From an uncultured Alphaproteobacteria bacterium (GTDB lineage Bacteria > Pseudomonadota > Alphaproteobacteria > RF32 > CAG-239): a stretch of DNA of 64,000 bases. Position numbers and translations under genes: made by a program. The notes beneath the pieces are model-generated. The model did no database searches. It saw only the letters and a program-made list of their open reading frames with translations, and was not told the origin of the DNA. Positions 29,304 to 37,453 of this stretch are shown in pieces. The stretch's first letter is position 1. Each line of letters begins with the position of its first letter. The stretch lies in NCBI GenBank assembly GCA_944392835.1, contig CALXYB010000005.1, positions 1 to 64,000 on the forward strand. Direction: 5' to 3'.

Positions 29304-29304
29304 C

Positions 29305-29406
29305 AAGCTGTTCAAGTGGACGCACTTGAGCGCTCACTGGTTGCTTTGAGAACCATTGTTGAACCGCGTTGCTTCCTAAGTGCATATCTATCTTTCGTGC
29401 CTTATG
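29305..29406 (+). repeat. Dispersed REP-like element, single copy
   Basis: The 56 bases 29351-29406 match 36551-36606 at most positions (shared core aaccattgttgaaccgcg, then gtgcatatct and tttcgtgcc). The left part has its own hairpin, TCAAGTG/CACTTGA at 29312-29329. Like the copy at 36381, it begins with caagctgtt directly at the end of a gene. Confidence 0.7.
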
Positions 29407-29428
29407 TTTTTTAGCCAAAAAAATTTTA

Positions 29429-29481
29429 TGTAGGCTCATTAATGGTAGACAAAAAAAATTGTAGTCTCATTAATAGTTGAC
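29429..29481 (+). repeat. Two direct repeats with 31-base period
   Basis: tgtaggctcattaatggt at 29429 and tgtagtctcattaatagt at 29460 differ at few positions and are 31 bases apart, close to three helical turns. They lie about 140-190 bases before the secreted-protein gene at 29620 and might be a paired operator. A weak CATTAAT core is shared. Confidence 0.45.
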
Positions 29482-29619
29482 TCATCCCTCAAATTAGTAT
29501 ATTCTTATATTCAATAGGTGTGTTGTTGTCGGCGTGATGCTTCTTGCTTCCGCCTCTCTTTGACGCATACCTTATTTTAACCGCAGGCTTTGTTTCTTGA
29601 TTATTGTTTGAGGTGTGCT

Positions 29620-34283: not shown

Positions 34284-36398
34284 ATGAAAAAACTTTTTCT
34301 TGCCGTTTGTTTCAGTCTTGTTTTTTTGAGCTCCAATCTTTGGGCTGCAACCACAGAAATAAATAATGCCGAAGAACTTCGCGCCCGGGAAGCTCAAGCC
34401 CCGGTTGATAATGAGCCGATTATTGACCCGAGAATCCCAACAGGCGAGAATCCGGCTGAAATGGATGCTTTCATCAAAGAAAGAATGAAAACCGTTGTGA
34501 TTACAAAACTTGATGAAAACGAAGACTTAAATGCCATGAAGTCCCTTGATGTACAACATAGTGCAGAATACATCAATATGCTTAAGGAAAGTAAAAAATC
34601 TACCTTTGAAAAAATTTATGATAATGCGATGAAGCGTATATCCGCAACAGATACGAGCGGAACATCCGAACAGCCTTATGATGATGTTTATTACTATATT
34701 AATGACCAGCCTTCCGTTGAGGAGCAAAAAAAACAATGGGAAGCTCCTGATTTTCCGGTCGTTAATGTAGAGCTGCCAAACGGCGCTCAAACCTTGGTGC
34801 CGGCAAGAGAACATATTCCGTATTTATTCAGCAAGATTGAAATTATGCCTAACGGCTTGATTGGTATCAACGAAACGATTACGGTTATTGCAAATGGTGA
34901 AAAACTTAAAAACGGTTTGTCTCGCGTGCTTCCGAAATATTCGGTTTCGCGCTTAAATGAACGCCACAAAATTGATTTTTCCTTGCTCTCCGTTACCATC
35001 AACGGGCAGGAAATTCCTTATAAGGCCGAAGAAGTCGGCGACAAAATTGTCTTAAAGCCCAAAGATAAATATACTCTTCAGCCCGGAATTTATACTTATA
35101 ATTTTGCTTACCTGATAGATCGGCAGCTTTGGACTTATGATGATTTTAACGAATTTTACTGGGATGTTACGGGAAGTTCGTGGAACTTAGTGATTACAAA
35201 CGCCGGAGCATCTGTCAGCCTGCCCGGCACGCAAGCTCCCATCAGCCAAAATATTTTTATCGGTTATCCCGGTCAGTTGACTTCTGAAAATGCTTTTGTA
35301 ACCAAAGGTGCGGATAATACTTTGGGCTTTGTTTCAGAAGTGCCGCTCTTTATCGGTGAAGGTATGCACCTTATCGTAGCTTTGCCCAAAAACGAGTTGC
35401 TTGTTCCTGATTTCGGCAAGAGGTTTTCTTGGTTTGTAAGTGATTATGGCGATATCTTATTTGCCTTGTTCGGTTTGGCGGCTATCTTAATCTCTTATAT
35501 TATCTCTTGGCGCTATATCAGTGCCGGACGCTCCAAACTTAAAACCGGAATGCGACGCACGGCTCCGATGTTGCGATACCTGATTAAAGGCGTGTTTGAT
35601 AAGGTTTCCTTTACGGCTTATTTGTTGGAGCTCTTCCGCAAAAATATTATTGATATTCAGGAAAGCGAAAATGAGATTATGTTGATTAAAAAAACCGACA
35701 ACCTCAGCGCCTTGAGCCGAACTGAACGCAAGGCTCTTGGCAATTTGTTTCCCGGAAAAGAATCTGTCATTAAGGTTAACAAGCAAACTCAGCTTAAATT
35801 TAAGCGCGCCTTTAGGCTGATTGAGAAAAACACTCTTCAAAACTTCAAAAGTGTTTCGCTCAAGCTCAGCGCCGGTTATTTGTTTTTCAGTATCGGCATG
35901 CTTCTGCTCTCCGAAGCCGCGATTGCCCTCCTAGCAGTTAATTTCGGACAAATCTTTTCCATTGAGCTGGCTTGCAGCGTTACGATGGCTTTTTATGTCT
36001 GGATTTTGCAACTTAAATTTAAGTCTCCTCTTTGGGGGTGGATGGCTAAAATTTTTGCGGCCTTAATCATCCTTTTCTCGCTTATGATGCTTAGCGTCTA
36101 TATCAGTTCCTTTGCTGCTCTTGTTCTGCTGGCGATGATTTATGTTATCTTTGCTTATACGGGGATTTTTGCCAAAAGAAGCGGCTTGATGAAAAACAAT
36201 ATTAAAGATGCTCTCGCTTTTCGTGATTATCTGATTGATAATGCCGCAACTTTGAGCTTAGGCAGAGATTTTTATGCGCAACAAGCCAATATCTTTGCTT
36301 TGGATATCTCCACGAAATATCCGCTAAACCCGAATATTAAGGATAATTATCGCTTGATTGAGGCAGAAAAACTTGCTCTCAAGCTGTTGTCAGCTTGA
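34284..36398 (+). CDS. DUF2207 family membrane protein
   Basis: A 704-residue exported membrane protein. Signal peptide about 1-21 (NLWAA). Residues about 180-370 form the DUF2207 extracytoplasmic domain: IEIMPNGLIGINETI, LSRVLPKYSV, YTYNFAYLIDRQLW and FYWDVTG. A transmembrane helix follows near 395-412, then a cytoplasmic stretch and three or four more helices near 540-640. Family members are found widely and have no settled role. The last five codons (KLLSA) and stop lie within the first unit of a 65-base repeat array, so the repeat has entered or formed the gene end. Confidence 0.75.
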   Translation: MKKLFLAVCFSLVFLSSNLWAATTEINNAEELRAREAQAPVDNEPIIDPRIPTGENPAEMDAFIKERMKTVVITKLDENEDLNAMKSLDVQHSAEYINMLKESKKSTFEKIYDNAMKRISATDTSGTSEQPYDDVYYYINDQPSVEEQKKQWEAPDFPVVNVELPNGAQTLVPAREHIPYLFSKIEIMPNGLIGINETITVIANGEKLKNGLSRVLPKYSVSRLNERHKIDFSLLSVTINGQEIPYKAEEVGDKIVLKPKDKYTLQPGIYTYNFAYLIDRQLWTYDDFNEFYWDVTGSSWNLVITNAGASVSLPGTQAPISQNIFIGYPGQLTSENAFVTKGADNTLGFVSEVPLFIGEGMHLIVALPKNELLVPDFGKRFSWFVSDYGDILFALFGLAAILISYIISWRYISAGRSKLKTGMRRTAPMLRYLIKGVFDKVSFTAYLLELFRKNIIDIQESENEIMLIKKTDNLSALSRTERKALGNLFPGKESVIKVNKQTQLKFKRAFRLIEKNTLQNFKSVSLKLSAGYLFFSIGMLLLSEAAIALLAVNFGQIFSIELACSVTMAFYVWILQLKFKSPLWGWMAKIFAALIILFSLMMLSVYISSFAALVLLAMIYVIFAYTGIFAKRSGLMKNNIKDALAFRDYLIDNAATLSLGRDFYAQQANIFALDISTKYPLNPNIKDNYRLIEAEKLALKLLSA

Positions 36399-36606
36399 CC
36401 GCGACAATGGCTGTGGCGCGAACCATTGTTGAACCGCGATGCTTCAAGCTGTTGCCAGCTTGACCGCGACAATGGCTGTGGCGCGAACCTTTGTTGAACC
36501 GCGATGCTTCAAGCTGTTGTCAGCTTGACCGCGACAATGGCTGTGGCGCGAACCATTGTTGAACCGCGATGCTTCCGGCGTGCATATCTTGCTTTCGTGC
36601 CCTATG
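36381..36606 (+). repeat. Three tandem 65-base REP-like units with shared flank
   Basis: Units run 36381-36445, 36446-36510 and 36511-36575 and differ at only one or two bases. Each holds a small hairpin (AAGCTG TTGT CAGCTT) and a larger one (CGACAATGG pairing with CCATTGTTG). The flank 36576-36606 (gtgcatatct ... tttcgtgcc) also occurs at 29380-29406. The array starts inside the last codons of the DUF2207 gene. Confidence 0.85.
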
Positions 36607-36658
36607 ACTTTTATGGATTCTTCGGGACAAAGTCCCTCAGAATCACGGTAGAAGTTTT

Positions 36659-37453
36659 TTAATCCTTGCTTAGCTGCTCTTGGTGGTGCCAAAAATATGT
36701 GAAATATTGGTACACGTGGCTATAAAAAGAAGCCTTCAGCGCTGCGTCAAAATATGATAGCCCGATTAAAAGTGCAGACATAATAAACTTAGATACAAGC
36801 CCTTCAAACTCCATCATCTCATACATGGTTGTTAATATTAGTACCGCGATTACCAAAGGCACTCTTAATAAAACTTGTCCCCAAAATATTTTATTGGCAT
36901 TCCCTTTGGTGAGCTTAAACGCTTTTTCCATCGTTAAATCTTTATCATCTACAGCTATTGCCGGAAGAATTATAAAGCACCGCGCAAAGTTTATGGCAAA
37001 AAACAAAGAAACAACGCCTGTAGATAAAAGTAGCATACCTCCTTTAACGCCAAATGACTTTAACATACCGACTATAATTCCCGCCGGGATTGCTACCAAC
37101 AAAAATAATAATAAATTGTACCCCAAGTATTTAATTTCTCTCCAACCAAAAGAGAAGCTAAAATACTTTCTCTCTTCTTTCAAAATGATTTGGCGGCTAA
37201 AACCTACAGCTATGGAAATAGAGGCTAAATACATAATTACAACAGAAAGATTTTGATAACCTTTGGATGGGCATATTTCTCCTTCCAACCCACAAAGAGA
37301 CGGAAAGCCCACAGCAACCTCATAAATAAGGATTAAAAACCAAACAGATGCGAGTTTTGTAAACGCATTGAAATTGGTAAAAATATATAAAAAGCTACGG
37401 CGAGCACATTCCCCAAAAGGAAGTTTAATTTGCGGTATCTGTTCTTGTTCCAT
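36659..37453 (-). CDS. Polytopic membrane protein
   Basis: A 264-residue protein with about six transmembrane helices (for example near 33-52, 70-90, 110-135, 140-165, 180-205 and 220-245). Between helices four and five is DDKDLTMEKAFKLTKGNANKIF, a pattern seen in YciC/DUF975-like and other membrane-domain proteins that share a TMEEAWxLTxGN-type loop. No function can be assigned. It overlaps the end of the related gene at 37425 by 29 bases; the pair look like cotranscribed paralogues. Confidence 0.65.
   Translation of the reverse strand: MEQEQIPQIKLPFGECARRSFLYIFTNFNAFTKLASVWFLILIYEVAVGFPSLCGLEGEICPSKGYQNLSVVIMYLASISIAVGFSRQIILKEERKYFSFSFGWREIKYLGYNLLLFLLVAIPAGIIVGMLKSFGVKGGMLLLSTGVVSLFFAINFARCFIILPAIAVDDKDLTMEKAFKLTKGNANKIFWGQVLLRVPLVIAVLILTTMYEMMEFEGLVSKFIMSALLIGLSYFDAALKASFYSHVYQYFTYFWHHQEQLSKD

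Follow-up and report, generated by a model that had tools for sequence, protein, structure and literature searches.

The stretch of DNA analysed here (64 kb, called the window in the following) carries a gene for a DUF2207-domain membrane protein, which ends within a short tandem array and is followed by a convergently oriented neighbour gene. This array is by far the strongest one reported by Tandem Repeats Finder for the window, extending from 36374 to 36575 with a period of 65, 3.1 copies, a match of 96% and a score of 381. An ungapped comparison revealed three head-to-tail units of 65 nt, starting at 36379, 36444 and 36509 with an end of the array at about 36575, and pairwise identities of 97-100%, unit 1 being identical to unit 3 and unit 2 differing at 2 positions. 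The three nearly identical 65-base units claimed in an earlier note on this DNA were therefore borne out. Each unit begins with the 8-bp hairpin TCAAGCTG-TTGT-CAGCTTGA. Unit 3 continues into a terminal module, GTGCATATCTTGCTTTCGTGCCCTATG, that reaches to about 36604, and a separate hairpin lies beyond it at 36615-36644. The features of the region are given below, R1 being a sequence profile of the ~97-nt core of the repeat family to which the units belong.

29304-29405, plus strand: second family copy within the window (R1, 67 bits), immediately following the TAA of a histidine-kinase-like gene
34284-36398, plus strand: gene for the DUF2207-domain membrane protein, 704 aa (open reading frame; Pfam PF09972, E 2.7e-17)
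36379-36443, plus strand: unit 1 (65 nt), matching the sister species' single unit at 100% identity
36379-36398, plus strand: left-end hairpin of unit 1, from sequence, fold and family conservation, with TGA at its end
36444-36508, plus strand: unit 2 (65 nt), with two private substitutions in the ungapped unit comparison
36509-36573, plus strand: unit 3 (65 nt), without a difference from unit 1 in the same comparison
36511-36604, plus strand: complete family core, formed by unit 3 and the terminal module GTGCATATC...CGTGCCCTATG (R1, 94 bits, E 4.8e-27; family alignments)
36615-36644, minus strand: companion hairpin GGATTCTTCGGGACAAAGTCCCTCAGAATC, an optional part of the element, from sequence, with the degenerate tag CGTGATTC
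36659-37453, minus strand: convergent neighbour gene, 264 aa, no match in the Pfam search (open reading frame)

The window's genome (G000) is a draft of 1.71 Mb in 27 contigs, and short reads have difficulty with three 65-nt copies that are nearly identical, which might have left a wrong number of units in the assembly. We consider such an artefact very improbable, as the flanks of the array are intact inside a 120-kb contig, the two private differences of unit 2 mean that at least two distinct units were resolved, and other arrays in the same and in other genomes, with units that are 79-95% identical, prove tandem units to be genuine.

The first 20 nt of unit 1 encode K-L-L-S-A-stop together with two bases of the preceding Leu codon, and the first hairpin of this unit closes with 3 nt that are the TGA of the DUF2207 gene. 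Thus, the suggestion that the array supplies the last codons of the gene is true for these 20 nt, though not for the array as a whole. As the stop lies inside unit 1, the number of units does not change the protein.

The DUF2207 gene end in related species

Genomes of seven species of the genus (G000-G006) were compared, and DUF2207 orthologues are present in all seven of them. The protein ends in LALKLLSA-stop in G000 and in its sister species G005 (94% protein identity to the window's DUF2207), both of which carry the element, and in LAHML-stop or LAQRL-stop in G004 (86%) and G003 (80%), respectively, both of which lack it. Three units are found at this site in G000, one in G005 and none in G004 and G003. 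In the two latter species, the stop of the DUF2207 gene is followed by an intrinsic bidirectional terminator, and no terminator-like hairpin was found by our own terminator script on either strand at the end of the gene in G000 and G005. Filled sites in G000 and G005 and empty ones in G004 and G003 indicate that the insertion preceded the split of G000 and G005, and that it supplied KLLSA-stop and removed the native end together with its terminator. Neither a target duplication nor an exact insertion boundary was recognisable at orthologous empty sites, that of DUF2207 included, where the boundary is unreadable because the flanks have diverged.

The single unit of G005 is 100%, 97% and 100% identical to units 1, 2 and 3 of G000, respectively, and the next best copy elsewhere reaches 94%. 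Since the unit in G005 is the closest one outside G000, either one unit became three after the split or three units shrank to one, and we infer the former direction. That the nearest outside relative of all three units is a single unit at the same site of the sister species supports the recent amplification proposed in the earlier note. In the common ancestor of G000 and G005, the element would have entered the DUF2207 gene a few codons upstream of the original stop, replacing the last codons, the stop and the bidirectional terminator behind it, and the 65-nt unit would then have been duplicated to three in the G000 lineage, for which slippage or unequal recombination between units would be the simplest route.

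Unit number differs between species at DUF2207 and also at other orthologous loci. At 30 kb of contig C11, two units are present in G000, one in G005 and none, but a terminator, in G003, and a ComF-like locus contains 1, 1, 2, 1, 1 and 3 units in six species. In total, two or three units at a spacing of 59-65 nt were encountered in 15 distinct arrays, with identities within an array from 57 to 100%. Tandem units are therefore a property of the family, and the array of the window is merely among the most homogeneous ones.

A dispersed and modular repeat family

The earlier note had not recognised the unit as part of a dispersed and modular family. A query of two units matches more than 20 places in G000, and the copy count that had been proposed as a check gave 34 matches to R1 in this genome. 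Five of the other species have 49, 33, 28, 26 and 18 matches to R1, and G006, the seventh one, has none though that genome is 99% complete. Among 126 genomes of the taxonomic family, the only further occurrences are diverged cousins in one other genus (five genomes) and one to two copies in two more genomes. When one genome per species was scanned for 84,980 species, five MAGs of the genus, including Azospirillum sp. CAG:239, contained exact matches to a 20-nt pattern for the left hairpin; elsewhere there were two isolated, chance-like single matches, and no streptococcal genome matched. A private satellite was rejected, the unit being dispersed through the genome, and so was a phage or plasmid origin, for which no exact match in IMG/VR contigs and no BLAST match in PLSDB were obtained. 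Similarly, a known structured RNA was rejected, as an Rfam search gave no match in or around the array, even when E values up to 5 were admitted.

The diverged cousin family of genus g8 (L168-L188) reads CAAGCTGAAGCCAGCTTGACCGCATC...CCGCGATGCTCT...GTGCCTTG. In its copy at L180 a 24-nt hairpin module alone is tripled in tandem, and its copies at L171 and L175 abut TAG stops, the latter apparently behind a flagellin-like gene.

The element consists of a hairpin-headed unit of 59-65 nt, present one to three times head-to-tail, of one terminal module, GTGCATATC...GTGCC, and in many cases also of a companion hairpin with a CGTC tag. Unit spacings in arrays amount to 59, 64 or 65 nt. In an alignment of 41 copies, the blocks CAAGCTG..GCCAGCTTGACCGC, GCG.TGCTTCC, GTGCATATC and GTGCC are invariant, highly variable stretches lie between them, and the blocks of the core are invariant across species. 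Of the two inverted repeats per unit described earlier, the first one, i.e. the left hairpin, is kept across the family; the second one, CGCGACAATGG...CCATTGTTGAACCGCG, is good in the array copy at 36379-36575 but not retained in the family. RNAalifold on the core returned the left hairpin and three outer pairs only, with a covariation term of 0, so that a covarying RNA fold of the whole core was rejected and, lacking covariation outside the left hairpin, the conserved feature is not proven to be RNA structure. In a MITE, the two ends would form terminal inverted repeats; by inspection, the ends of this element, CAAGCTG... and ...GTGCC(T/C)TRTG, do not mirror each other in this way.

Codons were added to DUF2207, gene ends were formed at a few other loci, and one reading frame of the core stays open in 35 of the 41 copies, all of which might point to a coding element that adds in-frame peptides as rickettsial palindromic elements do. 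Such a protein-coding element is hardly credible and was rejected, since there is no codon-position signal in the substitutions (permutation p 0.83), the best frame is just as open as expected from column permutation, and none of the unit lengths of 59, 64 and 65 is divisible by three. An integron attC site was also dropped, as there are no cassettes and the GTTGAAC of the element, which resembles the attC motif GTTRRRY, becomes GTTATAT in many copies.

The companion hairpin often follows the element. Its intact form, with the minus-strand sequence CGTCATTCTGAG...GAATCCA, is present at 31 of the retrieved loci, which overlap in part and come from several species. Its tag is degenerate in the copy of the window and an intact CGTC in the sister species (L052). 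Compensatory-looking changes, GGGAC/GTCCC and GGAGC/GCTCC, were noted in its stems (L052/L001 and other loci).

Two further recurrent sequences were noticed around the copies. A longer second dispersed repeat of ~130 nt, AAAGTTTGGAGAACGAGGTAAATAATAAGAAATAAAGGCGAAAGT...GTACGTGAGGAAACTTTCGCC...TTACCCGTTATACAAACTTTTT, repeatedly adjoins the left end of the family (L012 1565-1790, L014, L006, L008, L010 and L016, on contigs C1, C13 and C11 of G000). Downstream of several copies (29406-29500 of the window; L005, L007, L016 and L065), a recurrent block TTATGTAGGCTCATTAATGGTAGACAAAAAAAATTGTAGTCTCATTAATAGTTGACTC precedes genes that resemble paralogous secreted or surface proteins, and it might be a shared promoter or switch.

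Placement at gene ends and possible effects

Gene orientation was assigned at the 18 placeable loci of G000 by simple calling of open reading frames and by reading the sequence where this was ambiguous. Ten loci lie between convergent and eight between co-directional (tandem) genes, and none between divergent ones; compared to gaps of 50 nt or more within the window, the convergent excess has a p of 0.014, at small numbers. After collapsing orthologues, 44 independent junctions were left, grouped by our own script with simple rules, which makes the counts indicative. A TAA or TGA stands immediately before the left end in 17 of them, compared to a mean of 1.8 at neighbouring offsets, and the stop of the frame itself abuts the element exactly (distance 0) in 9 of the 42 junctions that have an upstream reading frame. 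Copies thus prefer such junctions, and the left junction is target-like, TRA/C with the stroke at the junction. At two stop-abutting loci, empty orthologues have their stop at the same codon, and there the stop predates the element. Other reading frames apparently end inside the element (L113 and L208/L222, the TAG lying in CAAGCTGTAG) or, at L003, in the companion hairpin with ...RSEELCSEESITT-stop, so DUF2207 is not unique in this respect.

Intrinsic terminators were called by our own script with simple rules at the seven loci with empty orthologues, and these counts are likewise indicative. At four of the seven (DUF2207, 30 kb of C11, and 107 kb and 52 kb of C1) the terminator is gone in the filled copies and present in at least one empty relative, at one it is missing in both states, and at two, rpsA and 103 kb of C5, it is kept beside the element, at C5 not in every filled species. 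The terminators kept at these two loci mean that replacement is not a rule.

Dispersal, filled and empty sites, junction preference and modular repetition fit a non-autonomous small interspersed repeat, and we consider it probable that the array is a copy of a genus-level family of such repeats, small, modular, non-coding and BOX-like, that was inserted and then amplified at DUF2207. The same family might well be neutral debris without an effect on transcription, translation or RNA stability, with gene ends that tolerate insertions and terminators that are dispensable, a possibility that we take seriously without favouring it. Small interspersed repeats accumulate where they are harmless, several copies have no adjoining terminator and no obvious replacement, and the missing covariation of the core would agree with neutrality, but core blocks that do not vary across species speak against it. 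Also, exact abutment of the stop in 9 of 42 junctions is far above a broad expectation of insertion anywhere downstream, although target choice alone could explain this excess.

The copies may have moved as DNA, mobilised in trans by a putative enzyme; no mobilising enzyme or transposase partner was found for the family. An IS200/IS605-like (Y1, RAYT) transposase that recognises the left hairpin and a TRAC-like target, and moves the repeat as a REP element, would be one candidate. It would agree with the hairpin at the left end, with the TRA/C junction and with the Y1 transposases that occur in four of the seven genomes of the genus. However, no Y1_Tnp was found in G000 or G002, both of which carry the repeat, and the Y1 genes of the genus belong to ordinary IS200-like elements with different ends of their own and are not flanked by the repeat as RAYT genes are by REPs, which makes this origin unlikely.

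In work summarised in PMC12306157, ribosome stalling and reduced translation are reported for REP hairpins that lie no more than 15 nt from a stop codon, and mRNA stabilisation or a part in termination has been suggested for REPs (PMC3733652). By analogy, transcribed hairpins that coincide with the stop or lie a few nt away from it may act on the mRNA 3' end or on ribosomes. An effect of the array on mRNA ends at DUF2207 is plausible, as the terminator of two relatives is absent here, and where a terminator was lost the element might take over 3'-end formation. It seems doubtful, in our estimation, that the whole of a more far-reaching scheme applies, in which a mobile or recombining family targets TRA/C behind stops, displaces terminators and takes over 3' ends, with the number of units as a tunable element.

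Relation to known repeats and significance

The closest analogues would be the pneumococcal BOX element (boxA-boxBn-boxC) with respect to architecture and REP elements with respect to position. BOX elements of Streptococcus pneumoniae and S. suis are modular (boxA-boxB(n)-boxC), have a variable number of tandem boxB modules, are in excess between convergent genes and can modify genes where they are inserted (PMC3049150). Like BOX, the family is a small, dispersed, intergenic and modular repeat with one module in variable head-to-tail number and an excess in convergent gaps, which can modify genes at its landing site and has no dedicated transposase known. A unit in variable number and a fixed right module were observed in six species, and a distinct fixed left module was not found in them. 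Unlike in BOX, the unit itself bears the left-end hairpin in place of a separate boxA-like left module, the left end abuts stop codons, and a CGTC-type hairpin often follows. The likeness rests on architecture and placement, not on sequence, and homology is not expected between the different phyla.

REPs lie within 20 nt of the ends of open reading frames, and CGTC-tagged REPs are a class reported mostly from alphaproteobacteria (PMC3733652). Like REP, REPIN and BIME sequences, the family has hairpins at gene 3' ends near the stop, mostly between convergent or co-directional genes, and the companion hairpin fits the CGTC type of REP, having CGTC as the tag of one end, a stem that opens with AT and, in intact copies, a CCA tail. 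The main unit differs from REPs in that it has neither a GTAG nor a CGTC tag, is longer (unit of 59-65 nt, core of ~97 nt), is conserved mostly at the level of sequence and not as a single palindrome, is repeated head-to-tail where REPs form inverted dimers, and has no RAYT. In the family alignment, the left end reads CAAGCTG...CAGCTTGAC, and a GTAG tag is absent at the foot of the palindrome. Since neither a distinct left module nor a GTAG tag nor a repeat-flanked RAYT gene was found, the family is not filed as BOX or as a RAYT-type REP.

Rickettsial palindromic elements are alphaproteobacterial repeats that form in-frame inserts inside open reading frames. The family described here is likewise an alphaproteobacterial repeat able to add residues to proteins, but its copies lie at gene ends, not within open reading frames, and there is no coding constraint.

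As far as a limited literature search of open-access papers shows, this is a new, undescribed family of a known kind of element. It represents an independent BOX-like architecture in a gut alphaproteobacterial genus, far from the streptococci. The family provides the genus with a variable marker and accounts for unusual C-termini in annotated genes, and the repeat-free species G006 is a natural control for any mobilising enzyme. Close species with 0, 1 and 3 units at one gene end offer a natural series for studying the spread of a repeat, and this series also suits asking why stop codons are preferred and whether terminators are replaced.
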